Positions 2,397 to 21,260 of a DNA stretch of 21,399 nucleotides are shown here, in pieces (positions within the stretch are counted from its first letter, which is position 1; every line of letters starts with the position of its first letter). Position numbers and translations under genes: made by a program. The notes below the pieces were generated by a model. It made no database searches. It had not been told where the DNA came from and saw only the letters and a program-made list of their open reading frames with translations. Origin of the DNA: a virus. The stretch is taken from IMG/VR virus record IMGVR_UViG_3300045136_000296, positions 1 through 21,399 of that record, one strand, 5' to 3'.

Positions 2397-2606
2397 ATGC
2401 GCATCTCGTTGAACGATCAGACTGTGCTGCTGCTGCCGCGTGTGGCCGAGATGGTGCAGTCATTGATCCAACGGCAGGGTGAAATCGAGCAATATAGCAG
2501 TGCGGAGATCCGCATTACCTACAGTACCTTTCAAGTCGAAATCCAAGTGATCCCCCCGCCGGAGCGGCGAAAACTTGACAGATCACAAAAATCCGCTATA
2601 GGCTGA
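2397..2606 (+). CDS. Small hypothetical phage protein
   Basis: This frame gives 69 residues from the ATG at 2397; a TTG at 2376 would add seven. Neither start has a clear Shine-Dalgarno sequence, which lowers confidence. The protein has a predicted helix (RVAEMVQSLIQRQGEIEQY) followed by alternating beta-type residues (IRITYSTFQVEIQVI), so it may be a small alpha/beta fold. I do not recognise the family. The last 30 bases overlap a sigma70-like promoter at 2575-2602, so the gene end and the promoter share sequence. Confidence 0.5.
   Translation: MRISLNDQTVLLLPRVAEMVQSLIQRQGEIEQYSSAEIRITYSTFQVEIQVIPPPERRKLDRSQKSAIG
2575..2602 (+). promoter_or_regulatory. Sigma70-like promoter before the gpW-type gene
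   Basis: A perfect -35 box TTGACA at 2575-2580 is followed by a 16-base spacer and TATAGG at 2597-2602, which matches the -10 consensus at four of six positions including TATA. Transcription would start near 2609. It overlaps the end of the small gene at 2397-2606 and precedes an otherwise non-coding 150-base stretch. A second promoter inside a late structural operon is unusual. The match is by eye; experimental start-site mapping would settle it. Confidence 0.55.
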
Positions 2607-2608
2607 AC

Positions 2609-2736
2609 CTGTGAGTCAGTACCGTTGTCACACGGCGGCTCACCGTGAGTGGCAGTTGCAGTAGCTCAGGCGAGGACTCTTCCCACAGAGCCGCCTGTTC
2701 CGGGGCTCATCCCCCCGGGCAGGCGGCTTTTTTATT
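2609..2736 (+). ncRNA. Candidate leader RNA or small RNA ending at an intrinsic terminator
   Basis: A transcript from the promoter at 2575-2602 would be about 125 bases long and would end at the T-run of the terminator. CAGGCG at 2667-2672 can pair with CGCCTG at 2692-2697, with a supporting inner stem CTCT 2677-2680 / AGAG 2687-2690 around loop TCCCAC. The same CGCCTG is also the left arm of the terminator, pairing with a second CAGGCG at 2720-2725. The two hairpins are therefore mutually exclusive, as in attenuators. A 17-codon GTG frame (2611-2664) ends three bases before the first hairpin. Whether this is an attenuator leader, an independent small RNA or neither cannot be told from sequence alone. 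Confidence 0.4.
2687..2736 (+). terminator. Rho-independent terminator upstream of the gpW-type gene
   Basis: The arms AGCCGCCTG (2689-2697) and CAGGCGGCT (2720-2728) are perfectly complementary and can be extended outward by A2687 and G2688. The loop holds a second short GC stem (CCGG against CCGG within 2700-2719). Six T residues (2728-2733) follow, then ATT. This is a textbook strong intrinsic terminator. It sits 24 bases before the next start codon, so it would also stop transcription coming from the terminase genes unless polymerase is made antitermination-proof. Confidence 0.82.
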
Positions 2737-2759: not shown

Positions 2760-3374
2760 GTGAAAACGGAACAAGAACTCCTGGATGCCCTGACCCGCGT
2801 GCGGGCACAGATCGCGCGGGCGGAGTCGATCAAGGAGCAACAATACTCCGTCGGCGGCCGTCAGGTGACGCAATTCAGTGCCGCCATGCTCCAGGCACTG
2901 TATGACCGCGAACGCGAACTGGAAGCGCAACTCGACCGCGTCCGCCGCGGCGGGATCCGGGTGCGCTACGGGGTGATCCGGCTCCTGCTGTACGCATTCC
3001 TCTGTGTCCCCTCCCTCGCTCTTGCCCAACAAGTGCCCAAGCTCACTCTCACGTGGACGGACAATGCGGACAACGAGGACGGGTTCAAGATCGAACGCCG
3101 TCTCGGCCAGACTGGTTCGTTCACCCAGATCGGCCAGGTGGGCAAAGATGTCGTGACCTACGCTGACACGCAGATTCTGGTCAACACCGAGTATTGCTAC
3201 CGCGTCCGGGCGTTTAACGCCGGCGGGCAGTCCGCGTACAGCAACATCGCCTGTGGCCTGGTGCCGAGCGCGCCGGCCGCGCCGAGCGGCTTGGGCATCA
3301 AAGTGGAGATCTCGGCCACGGCCACGGACGCCAGCCGCATTGTGGTCGCGCCCCAGATACGAGTCTTCAAATGA
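2760..3374 (+). CDS. gpW-like head-joining domain fused to a fibronectin type III domain
   Basis: The GTG at 2760 has AAGGGGG at 2750-2756 and gives 204 residues. Longer upstream frames would start inside the terminator region and are rejected. Residues 1-72 resemble gpW-type small phage joining proteins: a helix with SIKEQQYSVGGRQVTQ and a second helix ending QLDRVRRGG. Lambda W also lies between terminase and portal. Residues 73-90 form a hydrophobic, signal-peptide-like segment (IRLLLYAFLCVPSLALAQ) with an ALA cleavage-type site at 87-89. Residues 94-167 form an Fn3 domain (LTWTDNADNEDGF, YCYRVRAFNAGGQSAYSN). Residues 168-204 are an unassigned tail. An internal GTG at 2973 (residue 72) could start the secretory/Fn3 part alone, but its ribosome binding site is weak. 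Confidence 0.75.
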   Translation: MKTEQELLDALTRVRAQIARAESIKEQQYSVGGRQVTQFSAAMLQALYDRERELEAQLDRVRRGGIRVRYGVIRLLLYAFLCVPSLALAQQVPKLTLTWTDNADNEDGFKIERRLGQTGSFTQIGQVGKDVVTYADTQILVNTEYCYRVRAFNAGGQSAYSNIACGLVPSAPAAPSGLGIKVEISATATDASRIVVAPQIRVFK

Positions 3375-3688
3375 GCCTCGCGGAATCCCTACGGCACCTC
3401 CTCAGCCCTGTCCTGGGCCCGGCGCTGGCCGATCTCATCGCGGCCGTCGTGACGCGCCTCCTGCGCGAACTCGAGGCCACCAGCATCGATGACGAACTGG
3501 TCCACCTCCTCGCCCAGGTCGTGCGCCGCGTCCACGTACGCCACGCCGACGCCCCGGATGAGTTGAAGCGTCAGTATGCACAGCACGCCGTGCGCGCCGT
3601 CGTGCGCAACCGCACCCACCCGCTGCCGGATTCCGTGCTCAACCTGCTCATCGAAGCCGCCGTCCAGGAGGTGAAGGGGAAGGCATGA
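3371..3688 (+). CDS. Small protein with phage holin LLH-like C-terminus
   Basis: This 105-residue protein starts by ATGA overlap with the Fn3 gene and ends by ATGA overlap with the portal gene, so it is firmly in the operon. The N-terminal part (LLSPVLGPALADLIAAVVTRLL, about residues 10-31) is hydrophobic but contains charge, so it may be a membrane or amphipathic helix. The C-terminal part (DELKRQYAQHAVRAVV ... LPDSVLNLLIEAAVQEVK) resembles the cytoplasmic tail of LLH-type phage holin-like proteins, which end in an 'IEAAV' helix. Function is uncertain, since holins normally sit with the lysis genes. It could equally be a small head accessory protein. Confidence 0.72.
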   Translation: MSLAESLRHLLSPVLGPALADLIAAVVTRLLRELEATSIDDELVHLLAQVVRRVHVRHADAPDELKRQYAQHAVRAVVRNRTHPLPDSVLNLLIEAAVQEVKGKA

Positions 3689-5334
3689 GCACTGCACTGA
3701 CCCCCCGCACCCGGATTCTCGACGCCGCCGGCCGGCCGTGGCGACCGACCGCGACCCAGATGCAACAGCTCATGCGCCTCGCGGGCGAGAGCCCGTTCAA
3801 GGGGGCCTCCAGCGCCCGGCGCGCCGGCGCCCTGTGGTCCGCCTCGTCCGGCTCGGCTGACGCGGACCTCATGCCCTCGCTCGAGGTCCTCCGGGCGCGC
3901 TCGCGGGACCTCAAGCGCAACAACCCGCTTGCCGCCGGCGCGCTGAACACGCTCAGCACCTGCGTGGTCGGTTCCGGGCTGCTCTGCAATCCGGTGATCA
4001 ATCGCCGGTTCCTCGGCTTGAGTGAGCAGGCCGCGCGGGACGCCGAACGCGAACTGGCCGATCTCTGGACCGAGTGGGGCGAGTCGGTCGAGTGTGATCT
4101 CAACCGCGTCTCGGACTGGTACGGGATCCAGCGCCTGGCGTACGAGTCAGAAAAGGAGAGTGGCGATATCCTCGTGCTGGCCCCTGCCGTGAACCGACCG
4201 GGGGCCGCGCTGCAGACGCGTGTGCAGCTGGTCGAGGCCGATCGCGTGGCCAACCCCCCGGGGGTGTGCAACTCGCAGCGTCTCGTCGGAGGGGTAGAAC
4301 TCGATCAATACGGCGCCCCCTTCGCCTACCACGTCCGGACGGTCCACCCCGGCTCCCCCTGGTCCTGGGGGGCACTCTGGCAGAGCCAGCGGATCCGTGC
4401 GTTCGGTGCCGCGACCGGCCGCCGCAACGCCTGGCTGCTCTACCAACGCAAGCGGCCCGGGCAGACCCGCGGCATCCCGTACCTCTCCGTCGTCCTCGAG
4501 CACGCCAAGCAACTCGACCGCTATACCGACGCCGAGCTGGCCGCCGCCGTGGTCGGTGGCTCGTTCACCGTCTTTATCAAGTCGCCCCAGGGCGACGGGC
4601 TCATGCCCCTCGCGTCCGTGCCGCTGCAGCAGAGCGAGGGCACGCCGGCGGCCACCCCGAATGAGATCTTTCTCGACTACGGCGCGGTCGTGGACCTCCT
4701 GCCGGGCGAATCGATCGAGACTGCCGCGCCCAACCGCCCGAACCGCGCCTACGGCGACTTCGTGCGCTCGGTGATCGAGCAGTTCGGCGCCGGGATCAAT
4801 CTGCCCTTTGAACTGCTGCTGAAGCACTTCACCGCCAGCTACTCGGCCAGCCGCGCGGCGCTGCTCGAAGCCTGGCGCTACTTCAAAGTCGAGCGGGGCT
4901 GGTTCGCCGGCCATTTCTGCCAGCCGGTCTACGAGCTCGTGACGACCGAGGCGATCTTACGCGGTCGGCTTGATCTCCCCGGCTACCTCGAGGACCCGCG
5001 GGCCAGGCGGGCGTGGTCGTATGCCGTCTGGACTGGGCCCGCGATGGGACAACTGAACCCGCTGGATGAGGTGGAGGCCGCGCGCGAGCGCGTGACTTTG
5101 GGGATTAGCACGCTCGCCAACGAGGCGGCCGAGATCACTGGCGAATCCTGGGAAGATCTCCACGCCCAACGGGTCAAAGAAGTGGAACAGCGCCGGCGCG
5201 ATCGCCTCGAGCCGGATCCCGACGAGATGCCGGAGCAGCCCGCCCGCGGTCCTTCGTTTCCCATCAGCTACCGCCGGCTGGGGCGCGCGATCGCCCGGGC
5301 ATTGAAGGAGGACCAGCATGGCCTTGCGGCATAA
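3685..5334 (+). CDS. Portal protein, lambda gpB family
   Basis: This protein would form the dodecameric ring at one head vertex through which DNA enters and leaves and to which the neck binds. It has 549 residues against 533 for lambda gpB. Family-like segments are ARSRDLKRNNPLAAGAL (residues 71-87), VVGSGL (94-99), QLVEADRVANP (181-191) and the stretch from INLPFELLLKHF to ASRAALLEAWRYF (about 372-401). The C-terminal DPRARRAW ... GPAMGQLNPLDEVEAA motif is also typical. The C-terminal 70 residues are charged and proline-rich. It overlaps the upstream gene by four bases and the downstream protease gene by 17, suggesting coupled translation. Lambda gpB is processed at its N-terminus; whether that happens here is unknown. 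Confidence 0.96.
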   Translation: MSTALTPRTRILDAAGRPWRPTATQMQQLMRLAGESPFKGASSARRAGALWSASSGSADADLMPSLEVLRARSRDLKRNNPLAAGALNTLSTCVVGSGLLCNPVINRRFLGLSEQAARDAERELADLWTEWGESVECDLNRVSDWYGIQRLAYESEKESGDILVLAPAVNRPGAALQTRVQLVEADRVANPPGVCNSQRLVGGVELDQYGAPFAYHVRTVHPGSPWSWGALWQSQRIRAFGAATGRRNAWLLYQRKRPGQTRGIPYLSVVLEHAKQLDRYTDAELAAAVVGGSFTVFIKSPQGDGLMPLASVPLQQSEGTPAATPNEIFLDYGAVVDLLPGESIETAAPNRPNRAYGDFVRSVIEQFGAGINLPFELLLKHFTASYSASRAALLEAWRYFKVERGWFAGHFCQPVYELVTTEAILRGRLDLPGYLEDPRARRAWSYAVWTGPAMGQLNPLDEVEAARERVTLGISTLANEAAEITGESWEDLHAQRVKEVEQRRRDRLEPDPDEMPEQPARGPSFPISYRRLGRAIARALKEDQHGLAA

Positions 5335-6937
5335 CTCTGAGACCCGCGAGGACGAGCCGCAGTGGAGCGAGTGGCTCGGCCGTCATCGCGCACAGCTGCC
5401 AGATACTGCCTTTGCGGACCCTGACAATCGCGCGTTTCCCCATCACTGGGTCGTGAATGGGTCCGGTGAAGATGAGGACGGCCGCTGGACAGACGGGGAG
5501 ATGTATCTCCACCGCGGCGGCCTCAACGCCGCCTGGGCCGCGGCCATGGGCGCGCGGTCTGCCCAGCGCGCCGCGCCAGAAGTGATTGACCACTTGCGTC
5601 AGCACCGGAGGGCCTTGGGGTTGGAGGACGCTGAAGGTGCGGACGCAGTGAGTGAGGCCGAGGGGGACTCCCCAGGTGTGAGCGACACGCACGCTGCGCA
5701 GGCGAGTGCCCACCCCTCCATCCCCCTCGGGCTCTCACTCCCCCACGTCGCGACACGGCTGTTCCACGCCCCCCTCGCGATCGAGCCCAATAAGCTACGG
5801 GCGATCCTGGCGGCAGTCGGCCCCCGGTTCGGGATCCCCGTGCGCGCGCAAGACGACCCGTTCCCCCCCCGGCGCCGTCCCCCGTACGAGGTCGTGAACG
5901 GCACGGCCGTCATCCCCGTCTTCGGCACGCTCGTGCAGCGTGCCTCGGGGATGGAGGCGCTCTCCGGCCTGACCAGTTATGAGCGTCTCGGCCACGAGCT
6001 CGCGCAGGCGATGGCGGATCCGCAGGTGCGGCGGGTGCTGCTCGAGATCGATTCGCCCGGCGGCGAGGTCGCCGGCCTGTATGAACTGGTCGCGCAGATC
6101 CGCGCCATGCGTCAGCAAAAACCCATTCATGCGCTGGCGAATGCCATGGCCGCCTCGGCGGCGTATCTGATCGGCAGCGCCGCCACGCGGTTCTATGTCA
6201 CGCCGGAAGCCGTGACCGGGTCGATCGGGGTGGTGTACCTGCACGTCGATGCCACGCAGGCGACGGCGAAGGAGGGGTTCCTCGTGACTGAGATTTTCGC
6301 CGGCCGCCACAAGGTAGACACGTCGCCATACCGCGCGCTGGCGCCCGACGCGCGCGCGCAACTGCAGCGCTACGTCAACACCTACTACGACCAGTTCGTG
6401 GGACAGGTGGCGACCTTGCGCCAGCTCGAGCCGGATGACGTCCGCGCGACGGAAGCGGCGCTCTACATCGGCAAAGACGCCGTGGCGATCGGGCTCGTCG
6501 ATGGCGTGCGCCTCAAGCTCGATGTACTCGCGAACCCAGAAGAGGAGGACACCATGGAACGAACACCCAGCCGCCCGGCGGCTGTCCAGACCGCCGCGGA
6601 TCTGCGCGCGGCCTACCCGGAGGTGATTAGGGAGATCGAGGCCTCGGCGCGACAGGCCGAGCGGACCCGCGTCAAGCAGATCCTGGCCTTGGCGGTCCCG
6701 GCGACCCGGGCGACCGCCGAGCAGCTCGCGCTCGAGCAGGACGTGAGTCCCGAGCAGGCGGCCGTGACACTCATCGGTGCCATGCGGACCCAGGCGCGCG
6801 TCGAGGCGTTCACCCAGGACGGGCCGCCCCTCGTGCCCTTCGCCTCGGGCGAGGGGGAGACCCCCGACCCGGAGACCGCAGCCGTCATCGCGTCCGCGCG
6901 CCGCATCGCCGAGCAACGGCAGGCGCGCGGCTGGTAA
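5318..6937 (+). CDS. S49 (SppA-like) head maturation protease with scaffold C-terminus, lambda gpC type
   Basis: This 539-residue protein has three parts. Residues 1-105 form an N-terminal domain with LPDTAFADP, MYLHRGGLNAAW and APEVIDHL; similar small domains are attached to phage proteases and are called DUF6582-like here with caution. Residues 190-400 form the S49 peptidase: IDSPGGEVAG (244-253), probable nucleophile S280 in MAASAAYL, and probable general-base lysine K332 in GRHKVDTSPYRAL. Residues 413-539 are a charged helical scaffold segment that can also be made alone from an internal ATG. Enzymes of this type cleave scaffold and portal inside the prohead. The start at 5318 is preceded by AAGGAGG within the portal gene. 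Lambda gpC is 439 residues; the extra length is mostly the N-terminal domain. Confidence 0.94.
   Translation: MALRHNSETREDEPQWSEWLGRHRAQLPDTAFADPDNRAFPHHWVVNGSGEDEDGRWTDGEMYLHRGGLNAAWAAAMGARSAQRAAPEVIDHLRQHRRALGLEDAEGADAVSEAEGDSPGVSDTHAAQASAHPSIPLGLSLPHVATRLFHAPLAIEPNKLRAILAAVGPRFGIPVRAQDDPFPPRRRPPYEVVNGTAVIPVFGTLVQRASGMEALSGLTSYERLGHELAQAMADPQVRRVLLEIDSPGGEVAGLYELVAQIRAMRQQKPIHALANAMAASAAYLIGSAATRFYVTPEAVTGSIGVVYLHVDATQATAKEGFLVTEIFAGRHKVDTSPYRALAPDARAQLQRYVNTYYDQFVGQVATLRQLEPDDVRATEAALYIGKDAVAIGLVDGVRLKLDVLANPEEEDTMERTPSRPAAVQTAADLRAAYPEVIREIEASARQAERTRVKQILALAVPATRATAEQLALEQDVSPEQAAVTLIGAMRTQARVEAFTQDGPPLVPFASGEGETPDPETAAVIASARRIAEQRQARGW
6544..6548 (+). promoter_or_regulatory. Internal ribosome binding site for the nested scaffold
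   Basis: GGAGG lies inside the protease reading frame, five bases before an in-frame ATG at 6554. Its quality equals that of the best starts in this window, supporting a separate internal initiation event, as for lambda Nu3 within C. Confidence 0.75.
6554..6937 (+). CDS. Nested capsid scaffolding protein, Nu3-like
   Basis: This 127-residue frame is in phase with the protease and shares its stop. It begins at an ATG (protease residue 413) with an excellent GGAGG five bases upstream, just after the acidic linker NPEEEDT. The product is rich in Ala, Glu, Arg and Gln, with a long helix (DLRAAYPEVIREIEASARQA) and a C-terminal helix (ETAAVIASARRIAEQ). This is the expected character of a scaffold that organises capsid subunits and is then digested by the protease. 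In lambda, Nu3 is made in the same way from within gene C. The strength of the start signal and the lambda precedent make this likely, although it is not a separate open frame. Confidence 0.8.
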   Translation: MERTPSRPAAVQTAADLRAAYPEVIREIEASARQAERTRVKQILALAVPATRATAEQLALEQDVSPEQAAVTLIGAMRTQARVEAFTQDGPPLVPFASGEGETPDPETAAVIASARRIAEQRQARGW

Positions 6938-10474: not shown

Positions 10475-11452
10475 ATGCCATCTGCCGAAAACGCTCGGCT
10501 GCAGATCGAAGCGGGCCAGACCCTGGTCGCCATGGCTCAGCTCACCGACAGTGGGGATCATATCAAGTTTACCGGCGTAAGCGGCCTGTGGTCAGGGGTC
10601 GCCGGCAAAACCCCGGTGATCCGGCCCAACGGCGTGCGCTCTGGCGGGGCGGTGACGCCGAAGAGTGGGGCCAACGATCAGGTGACGGTGGCGGCGCTGG
10701 AAGCGAACTTAAATGGCGCCATCCAGAGCGTGGCCGGCGCGGACGTCTCGATCAGCCGCACCGCCGGTGGCGGCACCTACCAGAAGCACTCGATTATCGT
10801 GAACAATGCAGGCGCGCTGGCCGCGGTCGCCGGCACGGAGGGGGGCGCGTTCAGCACCACACGTGGCGCCGCCGGGGGGCCGCCCTTCATCCCGGTCGAT
10901 GCGGTTGAGGTCGCACAGATCTGGCTGACGTCGGATACGGCCGCGCCGATCCAGGCGAGCGAGATCAAGCAAGTGCAGGGCGAGCATTTCGAGCGGGCAA
11001 ACTTCCCCCTCTATACCATCGACCCCTATAGCGGGGCGGTCTCCTTCGTCTCCGCCCTCCCGCTCTCGCACACGGGCAGCGTACCCAAACGCGTGTACGC
11101 CGAATATTACACGCCGATTTTCGCGCCTGTGCCCAAGGCGCGGGACGTCGTGCTGCCCGAACGCACGTTCTCGATCAACTCGGAGGCGACGTATGACGGG
11201 CCGGAGGCCTCGGCCTCGAGCGCGCTCGCGCAGGGTTCTTTCACCGCCCTCCTGGAGAACGGTATCGATGACCTGTTGGTGCAGCTCGAAGGGCAAAACC
11301 TGTGGTTTAAGTTTTACCCCGACCGCTATAAGTCGGCCTATCACGCGTACCAGGGCATCCTGGGCATCGCCCGCCAGTTTCCGGCTGCCGGCAACCTCAA
11401 TGCGTCGTGCACAGTCACGGCGGCCAAGCAGGGCACCAACGTCGCGGCGTAA
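10475..11452 (+). CDS. Probable major tail tube protein
   Basis: This 325-residue, strand-rich protein has a near-perfect start (AAGGAGG before ATG at 10475). It lies between connector genes and tail assembly chaperones, the slot of lambda V. It contains QVTVAALEANLNGAI, VPKRVYAEYYTPIF, a middle NSEATYDGPEASASS, and a C-terminal segment with LWFKFYPDRYKSAYHAYQG. These fit a phage tail tube with an additional beta domain, and lambda gpV (246 residues) likewise carries an Ig-like domain. The family match is weaker than for the head genes, so order is the main evidence. A capsid fibre or other structural role is the alternative. Confidence 0.68.
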   Translation: MPSAENARLQIEAGQTLVAMAQLTDSGDHIKFTGVSGLWSGVAGKTPVIRPNGVRSGGAVTPKSGANDQVTVAALEANLNGAIQSVAGADVSISRTAGGGTYQKHSIIVNNAGALAAVAGTEGGAFSTTRGAAGGPPFIPVDAVEVAQIWLTSDTAAPIQASEIKQVQGEHFERANFPLYTIDPYSGAVSFVSALPLSHTGSVPKRVYAEYYTPIFAPVPKARDVVLPERTFSINSEATYDGPEASASSALAQGSFTALLENGIDDLLVQLEGQNLWFKFYPDRYKSAYHAYQGILGIARQFPAAGNLNASCTVTAAKQGTNVAA

Positions 11453-17320: not shown

Positions 17321-18546
17321 GCCGGATTCTTTTCGATCAGTTTGACGTTGCCGGCCAGGCGACCGTCACGCCCGCGGCGTTGGTGGTTGCCCTGAGTCTG
17401 ACCACGCCGACCATCCAGAACCTCTCGCATCAGCGTCTCTTCCCACAGCCCCTGAAAATCACCCTCACACCGGCCACACCGCTGATCTCCAACTCGCGCC
17501 CTCTCCCCCCGCCGCTGCGGCTGACGATGTCCATCCCGACGCCGACGGTCAAGCGCGGGACCCGCTTCGTCTATCCGCCCCCGCTCGCCCTCTCACTGGC
17601 GCTCCCGCCGCCGGCGGCCTGGACCGGCCGTGTGCTGCGCCCGGATCCGCTCAGGCTCACCCTCACGCTGCCGCCACCCACGCGCCTCTCGACCACCGAG
17701 CAGAAGGTCACGCCGGCGCCGCTGGTGGTCGGTCTGAGCCTGCCGGCCCCGCAGGTCATGCCAGGGCCGGTCACGTTCGCTGTGCGTTCCATGCCCATGC
17801 GCGTGTGGGTGCAACCGCCAACCTCCGCGCCCGCGCCGGCCATTGGCCCGATCCGGCTCGTGCACGTCACATACCACGCCGAATTCTCTGCCACGGGGCT
17901 CACCCCCGCGGTGCAGAGTATTCCTGTCAGCTCTGCTACTGGCACACTCAAAAATGACTTTGCGCTCCGCCCAAAGGTCACGCGCACCGTCAATCAATAC
18001 GGTCACATCGTGAAAACAGAGGTCACGCCGGCCACGCCGACCGACGCGGATTACGACACGCTCTCACTGGTCATCCCCAACGGTGCGCAGTGGTTGCCGA
18101 TTGTCACGAGTCTTTTTCTCTCCTCAACGCGGTGGGTTGTGTTGGCAGAACTCCGCCGGTACAGCGACGGTTCGGTCGTGCGTGTCCCGCTCATGGGCGC
18201 GACGCCAAAGACGTTCAGCAGGCAGCGCACGGCGCGCGGCTACCAGATCCAGATGCAGTGCGGGAGGGCGCTCAACCACCAGGGCGGGCCGCTCGTCGAT
18301 CTCACGCCGCCGGACGTCGTGCAGTACCGGGTCGATGAGGGCGGACGCGCCACGTGGCAGATCGTGGCAAACTTTTCCATCCGCCCGCTCTCGACCATTC
18401 GCTGGAGCGGCCAGACCTACCAGATCCGCGACGTGCAATTCGCGCTGGGGCCGCGCCGCCGGGAGATGACACTTATACAACTCTTCCCGAGCGATATCCC
18501 GCAGCCAACGATTGTCCAACAAAGCGCGAGTGCGGGAGCGACGTAA
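17317..18546 (+). CDS. Tail protein with six proline/leucine strand repeats
   Basis: The 409-residue product overlaps its upstream neighbour by ATGA and its downstream neighbour by TAATG. Residues 18-146 hold six copies of a motif of form P-x-P-L-x-L-x-L-x-L-P-x-P, with the leading prolines at 19, 43, 64, 87, 109 and 133. Examples are RPDPLRLTLTLPPPTRL and YPPPLALSLALPPPAAW. A weaker seventh may start at 149. After residue 175 a different part begins (IGPIRLVHVTYHAEFSATGL), ending in strand-rich GGRATWQIVANFSIRPLSTI and YQIRDVQFALGPRRREMTLI. The C-terminal half resembles small phage tip proteins that bind the larger central fibre. The repeats may form an extended stalk. Function is not established. 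Confidence 0.68.
   Translation: MSRILFDQFDVAGQATVTPAALVVALSLTTPTIQNLSHQRLFPQPLKITLTPATPLISNSRPLPPPLRLTMSIPTPTVKRGTRFVYPPPLALSLALPPPAAWTGRVLRPDPLRLTLTLPPPTRLSTTEQKVTPAPLVVGLSLPAPQVMPGPVTFAVRSMPMRVWVQPPTSAPAPAIGPIRLVHVTYHAEFSATGLTPAVQSIPVSSATGTLKNDFALRPKVTRTVNQYGHIVKTEVTPATPTDADYDTLSLVIPNGAQWLPIVTSLFLSSTRWVVLAELRRYSDGSVVRVPLMGATPKTFSRQRTARGYQIQMQCGRALNHQGGPLVDLTPPDVVQYRVDEGGRATWQIVANFSIRPLSTIRWSGQTYQIRDVQFALGPRRREMTLIQLFPSDIPQPTIVQQSASAGAT
17370..17757 (+). repeat. Six tandem 21-24-residue coding repeats
   Basis: These are the coding repeats for the proline/leucine strand motif in the tail protein above. The period is 24, 21, 23, 22 and 24 residues. Nucleotide identity is modest, so the repeat is better seen in protein than in DNA. 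Confidence 0.72.
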
Positions 18547-21260
18547 TGGGCCGTGCACGGATCATCTCTCATCTCGGCGAAGCGCAGTACCAGGTGCGCT
18601 ACCTCTACAACGTCGCGGCGGTTGAGGCGGAGGAACAGCGGCTGGAAGAGCGGGCAGAGGTCATTGAAGCGGAGCTCAGACCCCAGGCCGAGGACGAGCT
18701 TGCCGCGGCAGAGCAAGCACTGAGTGACGCCCGGGCCGCGGTGAATACCGCGATCAGGAAGTACGAGGGACAGCCGACGCCGGAGATGCAGGCAGAGATG
18801 GCTGCGGCCGTCAGTGGCATCGGCACATTACGCACGACACTCGATAGTGTAGAAACCGGCCTGCTCAATGTCAGCGTCTCGGTTGCGACCTCCCGCGCAG
18901 CGCTGCCGGGCGGCGCTCCCCCCTCAGTCATCCAAGCCTACGACAGTTTACAGAACGGTATCACGACCGCACAAAGCGCGCGCAACGACGAGGAGACGTC
19001 CGTCGCGGCACTGCAGGGTACGATCTTGGAGATCAGCAACGCGATCGCCGGCGAGCCGGACATGAGCGGTGTGCGCGCACAGATGGCGACCGCGCTCGAT
19101 CAACTAAGCCAGAGCCAAGTCCAACATAGTCAGGCGGGGGCTCGGCTGGCGGACGTAGAGACCTTGCTCGACGCGGCGCGTGATACGCTCCCAAGCGACC
19201 CTGCCTATGACACGGCACGGGAGCATCTGGAGAGCGCGGCCAGTGCGCTTGCTACGGCACGGGCGTCCCACAGTGGGATGAACTATGGCAGTGTCAGCGC
19301 CGCGCTGGCGACCGCCGACCGTCTCATGCAGCCGGGCAGTGAAACCGCGAGACAAGAACTGATGGCCGCCCTGGCCCAGCAGAATGAAGCGTCTGCGGTT
19401 GCCCAAGAGGCGACCGCCGCACTCAACGAACTGGAGGCAGAGCTGGGGCAGATTGACGCCAGGCTTATCGAGCTGGCGCAGATCGCGCGCGAGGAGACGA
19501 AGACCGTGTGGTGTGCAGACTATTCGACCGAGCTGCAACCCGAGACCGAGGTGGGCACGCTCGAGGTGCCGGGCGAGCTCACCGAGATCCTTGTGCACCC
19601 TGACCAACCCAACGGCAAAGCCGGCAACGCGGCCTGGCAACCGCCGCGCGATGGGGCGATGACGCCGGTGCAGGCCATGTCCCCAGCGCAGGTCTTTTAC
19701 AACTGGTGCATGGCACCGGGCTGGCAACGCTTTCGACCGACCTTCCGATTTGCCCGGGTCGAAGCGGTGAATGACGATGGGACGCTGAAGCTCGCGTGGC
19801 TGCCTCCGAACACCAGCAAATACAGTGAGCATCGCTCACTCCTGCACGGCGCGCCGCTCGACATCACGCCCAAGACGCTGGACGACGCGGACATTCCGCT
19901 CGACAAGGTGCCGGTGACCTACATTGACTGCCACGCCGCGGCGTTTGTAGCCGGCGATGAGGTTGTGGTGGAGTTCGAGGCGCAAGACCCCGAGCGCCCG
20001 CGGGTCGTCGGCTTCCGCAAGAACCCGCGGCCCTGTGGCAGTGTGATCGGCACTCCGACTGGCACCGTACAATTCGTTTCAACCCAATGGACCTTCACGC
20101 CGAAGACTGTATTGTATGGCGCCGTCAACTGGCGGGGCGCCAACAATCAGGTGGTGAGTTGGCACGCCTCCAGCCATCGCGTGTTCAACCGCCTCCGTCC
20201 GACGGTACGAGAGGACTCGGGGCAGCTCAGCGGGCGCATTTATCTCGGTGGACGCCTGGCTGCCGAAGCGCCCGCGGAAATCGTGGGGGCGGCGATTCAA
20301 CGCCTGGACACCGGGTCGTATTTGGTCGCGGTGTCCAGCCAGTCCGAGGTCGATGAGTCGTATGAAATGACCGGCGGTAAAGAAGTCGTGTACCGCAAGC
20401 TACTTCCTGACGGGCCGTGGGAAGTGGTCGCGGAGGTCTCCTGGCCGGATGCGTGGTGGCGGCGTCCGTCCGGGGCGGAGTACTATGGCTCGGTGCTCTA
20501 TGGGCTCTGGCACTTCAACCCGTCAGGCACGGAAGCGGTGAGCGTTCGGCAGCTTTTTACGACTTCACCCGGCGGTGGCGATAGTCTGGAGTTGAGGGTT
20601 TACCAACTCACCGTCGGCGCGGGCGCAACAATCTCAGAGTTTGGGTCTGCCCCGTCCGGCGTGATCGCGGCGGACTATAATAGTGCCGGGAATTTGGTGT
20701 TTGCGACCTTTGGCCCAGGACCCACGATCCGCCTGCCGAGTTACTCGTTCAGTGTCAACCGCCACTTCTTGGCGTATATGGACCTGCGCTACGAGATTGC
20801 CGTGACAGTCGAGTTGACGGCCGGCGCAGACCCAACAGGAACCGCAACACTCCACACGCCACTGTTCACGGCACCGTTGGTATCCACGTCTCTAGACTCC
20901 ATTTTTGGTCACGAATTTAACGAGACTAACGGCACAGATGATGCGGGACATTTTTTTACGTTTCGCGGCCCCTTTTCTCCGTTAGCGGACGAAGAGGGGG
21001 CGTTTCCGAAGTTTCACACGATCTTCCAGAGCAACGGTGGTCGGATCTTTTTGGACGAGTTCGCGTGGGTGGCGGCCGATCAGAATGGTCACTTTGTGGT
21101 CGCGCTGGCGCCCTTCCTGAAGGGCTACACGCAGGCGAATGGTGTCCAGGTTGTCAATGAATATAGCGATCGCCTGATTCGCGGATTCAGTCGCACTGGC
21201 GATGTGCGACAAGATATTGCCGGGGCACTGTTAAATAATTACCCCATAGGATCGATATGA
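18546..21260 (+). CDS. Large tail tip protein: coiled coil, tip domain and fibre-like C-terminus
   Basis: The ATG at 18546 overlaps the previous stop as TAATG and gives 904 residues; upstream in-frame starts lie inside the previous gene. Residues about 20-320 are Ala/Glu/Gln-rich and strongly predicted coiled coil (AAVEAEEQRLEERAEVIEAE). Residues 320-500 carry features I recognise from large phage tail proteins: VWCADYSTELQPETEVGTLE, YNWCMAPGWQRFRPTFRFAR and DEVVVEFEAQDPERPRVVGF followed by NPRPCG. Residues 500-904 are strand-rich, without repeats that I can name, and may bind the receptor. The final 380 bases are AT-richer (near 45% GC at 20881-20940). This appears to take the place of lambda J in function, though the sequence does not resemble J. 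Confidence 0.8.
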   Translation: MGRARIISHLGEAQYQVRYLYNVAAVEAEEQRLEERAEVIEAELRPQAEDELAAAEQALSDARAAVNTAIRKYEGQPTPEMQAEMAAAVSGIGTLRTTLDSVETGLLNVSVSVATSRAALPGGAPPSVIQAYDSLQNGITTAQSARNDEETSVAALQGTILEISNAIAGEPDMSGVRAQMATALDQLSQSQVQHSQAGARLADVETLLDAARDTLPSDPAYDTAREHLESAASALATARASHSGMNYGSVSAALATADRLMQPGSETARQELMAALAQQNEASAVAQEATAALNELEAELGQIDARLIELAQIAREETKTVWCADYSTELQPETEVGTLEVPGELTEILVHPDQPNGKAGNAAWQPPRDGAMTPVQAMSPAQVFYNWCMAPGWQRFRPTFRFARVEAVNDDGTLKLAWLPPNTSKYSEHRSLLHGAPLDITPKTLDDADIPLDKVPVTYIDCHAAAFVAGDEVVVEFEAQDPERPRVVGFRKNPRPCGSVIGTPTGTVQFVSTQWTFTPKTVLYGAVNWRGANNQVVSWHASSHRVFNRLRPTVREDSGQLSGRIYLGGRLAAEAPAEIVGAAIQRLDTGSYLVAVSSQSEVDESYEMTGGKEVVYRKLLPDGPWEVVAEVSWPDAWWRRPSGAEYYGSVLYGLWHFNPSGTEAVSVRQLFTTSPGGGDSLELRVYQLTVGAGATISEFGSAPSGVIAADYNSAGNLVFATFGPGPTIRLPSYSFSVNRHFLAYMDLRYEIAVTVELTAGADPTGTATLHTPLFTAPLVSTSLDSIFGHEFNETNGTDDAGHFFTFRGPFSPLADEEGAFPKFHTIFQSNGGRIFLDEFAWVAADQNGHFVVALAPFLKGYTQANGVQVVNEYSDRLIRGFSRTGDVRQDIAGALLNNYPIGSI

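Follow-up and report, generated by a model that had tools for sequence, protein, structure and literature searches.

Phages use processive antitermination to overcome terminators that lie ahead of genes. The sites recognised by the different Q proteins are unrelated to each other. In the lambda pR'-tR' region, a promoter, a short leader and an intrinsic terminator stand just 5' of the late genes and give a short RNA as a constitutive by-product; in Stx phages, processing of this terminated RNA yields StxS (PMC7873438). A second arrangement is that of PalpB-tB in Pseudomonas aeruginosa, where the terminator lies 54 nt after the transcription start and is bypassed by the DNA-bound antiterminator AlpA (PMC7969949). 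IsrK of the Salmonella prophage Gifsy-1 is a short RNA with its own terminator, and part of the transcription continues past this terminator into the phage genes that follow (PMC4825925).

The locus described here has the anatomy of the lambda region, i.e., a promoter, a short leader and an intrinsic terminator just 5' of late genes, and the terminator falls within the range of about 50–300 nt after the promoter that is typical of a lambda-type gate. Unlike at lambda pR', however, the TerS and TerL genes as well as two small ORFs are located 5' of the unit, and no Q-family gene was recognised among the left-arm proteins scanned. PalpB-tB is similar in that an intrinsic terminator lies about 50–100 nt or less after the promoter, but the only candidate relative is a weakly matched HTH_17/excisionase-like protein (nt 5318–5866 of the longer assembly G001, see below), and the published AlpA-binding motif, GGGACG-N5-GGTA (PMC7969949), is absent from the leader promoter (spacer GATCACAAAAATCCGC). 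With neither a Q-family protein among those scanned nor the AlpA motif to point to, membership in either type of gate is not claimed. The likeness to IsrK consists of a short RNA that is ended by its own terminator, with phage genes downstream, but no sequence relation was found, and it is head genes that follow here in place of anrP. A leader, a candidate antiterminator strand and a terminator are also shared with attenuators that have mutually exclusive hairpins, but the present leader shows no sensor and no signature of a leader peptide.

The phage and the locus

The window (the whole stretch of DNA that was analysed) comprises 21,399 nt, positions 1–21,399 of the virus record IMGVR_UViG_3300045136_000296, one strand. 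A second, longer assembly (G001, 35,121 bp) agrees with the window over the whole length of the latter except for a single mismatch and a 22-bp indel, and the leader sequence is identical in the two. The longer assembly encodes an integrase, an HTH repressor, regulators of CII-like and excisionase-like type, proteins similar to DnaD and ParB, TerS, TerL, portal, an S49 protease, the major head protein and the tape measure. This gene content shows the phage, which is uncultured, to be temperate. Its TerL is of the lambda GpA type and, apart from one near-identical assembly, the relatives found are no more than about 46% identical in TerL. Scans with TerS, TerL, the portal and major head proteins and the products of the 69-aa ORF and of the first gene after the terminator returned no close relatives; the matches were to the same phage in the second assembly, to distant relatives or to FN3 domains only. 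The features of the locus are as follows.

121–2085, + strand: terminase large subunit (GpA ATPase and nuclease domains)
2397–2606, + strand: 69-aa ORF, function not assigned; its 3' end carries the promoter
2575–2602, + strand: sigma70-type promoter (−35 TTGACA, 2575–2580; 16-nt spacer; −10 TATAGG, 2597–2602)
2608–2734, + strand: predicted short transcript of about 124–127 nt (start at 2608–2611 deduced from promoter spacing, end from the T-run)
2689–2734, + strand: intrinsic terminator, stem AGCCGCCTG/CAGGCGGCT with inner CCGGGG/CCCCGG, then TTTTTTATTG; unidirectional
2760–3374, + strand: first gene after the terminator, GTG start, Shine-Dalgarno AAGGGGG at 2750–2756; weakly gpW-like domain and FN3
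3685–5334, + strand: portal protein, lambda family

Promoter and terminator

The original prediction had placed a promoter (TTGACA, 16 bases, TATAGG), a leader of about 125 bases and a strong terminator 5' of a gpW-like gene. The coordinates bear out each of these elements, although TATAGG does not end in the T that is usual for a −10. Read with a spacer of 18, the −10 becomes TAGGCT (2599–2604), which does have this T. The promoter overlaps the last codons of the 69-aa ORF, and the GC content around it is 45–48% per 40 bases, compared with 64% overall. It is the only match of at least 10/12 on either strand of the window, and is not listed by a stricter scan of 9/12 in which the last T of the −10 is required. 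An exact TTGACA-N15–18-TATAR occurs once in the window and in none of 100 shuffles; the looser 10/12 rule finds a match in 19.5% of + strand shuffles of the window. The longer assembly has four matches of at least 10/12, all on the + strand, at 1499, 2680, 3771 and the leader promoter. The match at 3771 is divergent from the HTH repressor and that at 1499 lies just 5' of a GTG start with a Shine-Dalgarno sequence; judged from this gene arrangement, both are sites where real promoters are expected. Neither the window nor the longer assembly has a match of at least 10/12 that lies 3' of the terminator.

On its own, the terminator hairpin has a folding energy of −32.2 kcal/mol (z = −5.4 against shuffles), and the T-run is present on the + strand side of the hairpin only. 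With a score of 28.8, it is the only strong terminator (score of at least 18) on either strand of the window, and also the only one in the 35 kb of the longer assembly, where it lies in a gene gap on the same strand as the promoter and about 85 bp from it. Strong terminators arise about 0.025 times per window shuffle.

The scanner thresholds were picked with this case in view, so the frequencies describe rarity and are not formal p-values: a promoter (10/12) with a strong terminator at 40–300 nt was found in none of 200 window shuffles and nowhere in 136 TerL-related loci (2.29 Mb, both strands counted), although the same scan of these loci returned 80 promoters (10/12) and 23 strong terminators. 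The portal gene could be placed in 124 of the loci, and 118 of these terL–portal intervals have no terminator-like hairpin scoring at least 14. The remaining six, near-identical to each other, carry a weak hairpin (score 15.0 versus 28.8 here), and this Serratia-type hairpin between TerL and portal was rejected as not comparable to the leader terminator. The elements of the locus, their uniqueness and their order are directly observed, and by sequence the promoter, leader of about 125 nt and terminator make up a complete, self-contained small transcription unit.

A proposed default-off gate between packaging and head genes

The tentatively favoured explanation is that the unit acts as a self-contained transcription gate, off by default, which separates the packaging genes from the head–tail genes. 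Host RNA polymerase would start a transcript at about 2608–2611, and the very strong intrinsic terminator would end nearly all of it at about 2734, yielding an RNA of about 125 nt. Transcripts coming from the packaging genes would likewise be halted at 2689–2734. Head, tail and later genes would be expressed only when RNA polymerase is altered to read through, and the most economical means would be a processive antiterminator loaded at or 5' of the leader promoter, by analogy with lambda pR'-tR'.

All head and tail genes lie beyond a strong terminator in sense orientation, and since no 10/12 or better promoter match is found after it, the head genes are probably transcribed through the terminator. 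Its position implies either that it is leaky, that a promoter was missed, or that RNA polymerase is made to read through. Gates of the same anatomy are known and phages make use of processive antitermination, which argues for the gate, as does the rarity of the promoter–terminator pair. Against it, a PHROGs scan of left-arm proteins gave neither a Q-family member nor any other named antiterminator, although several small proteins of this arm are unassigned. The location of TerS and TerL 5' of the unit, which differs from lambda pR', the missing AlpA motif and the imperfect −10 also count against it. If the gate works as proposed, it would place a late-gene checkpoint between the packaging and head genes and not ahead of the whole late operon, and would imply an unrecognised antiterminator in the left arm. 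The expected decoupling of packaging from head genes agrees with the position of the unit, which would separate the two gene sets. A small phage RNA had also been suggested originally, and a short RNA of about 125 nt is probably the default product of the unit; if stable, it would be a new prophage sRNA. In our ranking, the gate is followed by a small RNA 'moron' as the main rival, then by a plain transcript boundary and lastly by an RNA switch.

The main rival is rather unlikely, and supposes a non-coding moron, that is, an sRNA gene with its own promoter and terminator that was inserted in the late operon, is active in the prophage and acts in trans on host or phage mRNAs, with late transcription reading through it. 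The autonomous promoter and terminator, the lineage-specific position and the lack of any sizeable protein within the unit are all in keeping with such an element, as is the fact that the site is free in related phages, where none of the 124 terL–portal intervals has a comparable unit. Phage sRNAs of similar length are also known, with StxS at 74 nt, IsrK at 217 nt and SprY at about 125 nt (PMC12197685).

The folding of the leader speaks against the moron. Leader and terminator together fold at −64.2 kcal/mol (z = −4.7), but the leader without the terminator (2609–2688) is no better than shuffles (z = −0.3), so the excess stability is due to the terminator. A compact three-way-junction RNA (5' CUGUGAGUC closing on GACUC...CACAG) was dropped for the same reason, as shuffles fold as well. 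Nor was a homologue of the leader found when phage, plasmid and E. coli DNA was searched, when viral_contigs was scanned for the exact promoter pattern, or in five genomes carrying related TerL genes. As regards a possible antisense target, there is no exact complement of at least 11 nt elsewhere in the phage, and a tRNA/tmRNA search gave nothing credible. The sequence alone does not separate the moron from the default-off gate.

A plain boundary is less likely again. The terminator would then merely end the packaging-gene transcript, or be a relic, and the promoter-like sequence would be incidental. This fits with the ease with which a 10/12 promoter match arises by itself in window shuffles (19.5%) and with the missing last T of the −10, but not with the exact −35 and TATAR, found in none of 100 shuffles, or with the pairing of this promoter to the only strong terminator, which was seen neither in 200 shuffles nor in 2.29 Mb of related loci.

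Candidate antiterminator pairings

In a cis-acting attenuator, the leader itself would form an antiterminator under some signal, possibly translation of a small ORF, upon which transcription would continue. The features that bear on this are the following.

2611–2664, + strand: 17-codon GTG ORF (VSQYRCHTAAHREWQLQ-stop); its first base coincides with the predicted transcript start or is no more than about 3 nt from it, and the ORF ends just before the first CAGGCG
2634–2641, + strand: GGCGGCTC, best candidate antiterminator strand; perfect 8-nt complement of GAGCCGCC (2688–2695) in the terminator 5' arm
2667–2672, + strand: CAGGCG, antiterminator strand of the original prediction; 6-nt complement of CGCCTG (2692–2697), chance-level

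The original prediction took the layout to be that of an attenuator, in which the first of two CAGGCG copies (2667–2672 and 2720–2725) pairs with the CGCCTG between them (2692–2697). All three motifs are present at these positions. The window holds 44 occurrences of CAGGCG and its complement, however, so that the repeated 6-mer is weak evidence, and since upstream complementarity of at least 6 nt to the terminator 5' arm is found at 18 of 77 terminator-like sites in related loci, the pairing is ordinary. The 8-nt complement GGCGGCTC/GAGCCGCC, a better partner that the original prediction overlooked, is less common, having an equivalent at 1/77 terminators, in 0.7% of leader shuffles and in 2.2% of real windows (p about 0.01–0.02, after the fact), but the duplex energy of the leader with the terminator 5' arm reaches only the 6.7% level (windows).

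In favour of an attenuator, the two antiterminator folds differ by only about 2 kcal/mol or less from the best structure as long as the nascent chain ends at 2700–2717. Once the terminator 3' arm is complete, the terminator is ahead of either fold by about 15–20 kcal/mol and termination is therefore the expected default; any RNA switch would have to be kinetic and factor-assisted. An Rfam search of the leader gave nothing above the gathering score and no known ligand aptamer. The 17-codon ORF has neither a Shine-Dalgarno sequence nor a run of regulatory codons, and is a weak candidate for a leader peptide; its translation would be leaderless, and the leaderless type described in mycobacteria (PMC4633059) was considered and is not supported for 2611–2664.

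An attenuator built on either pairing is improbable. The CAGGCG antiterminator finds no support, being at chance level and opposed by a far more stable terminator, and what stands of the proposed attenuator layout is a unit lying between packaging and head genes. Also unlikely is a true RNA switch within the late operon of a lambda-type phage, in which competition between the 8-bp antiterminator (2634–2641/2688–2695) and the terminator would let a signal adjust the output of the head genes independently of that of the packaging genes.

Neighbouring genes and assembly differences

The gene that follows the terminator (2760–3374) is identical in both assemblies. Its product has a head–tail adaptor domain of about 72 aa, weakly similar to gpW (PHROG head-tail adaptor, E 0.005), so the predicted gpW-like gene does have an adaptor match, but a weak one and in a protein fused to FN3. 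The adaptor domain runs in frame, with no stop, into a signal-peptide-like stretch (VIRLLLYAFLCVPSLALA) and the FN3 domain, so that either the fusion is an unusual one or a stop codon has been lost.

Between this gene and the portal gene lies a weakly matched holin-like ORF (window nt 3371–3688; PHROG 608, E 9.5e-5; Pfam Holin_LLH below cut-off), at a distance from the place where lysis genes usually lie. Located 5' of the terminase genes (nt 10789–11396, longer assembly) are two small unassigned ORFs, both rich in cysteine and zinc-finger-like, which are candidates for an unrecognised late regulator. The two assemblies also differ near the right end of the window: a 22-bp stretch (19620–19641) is missing from the second assembly, and a single ORF of 968 aa (window nt 18354–21260) is represented there by two ORFs of 428 and 533 aa.
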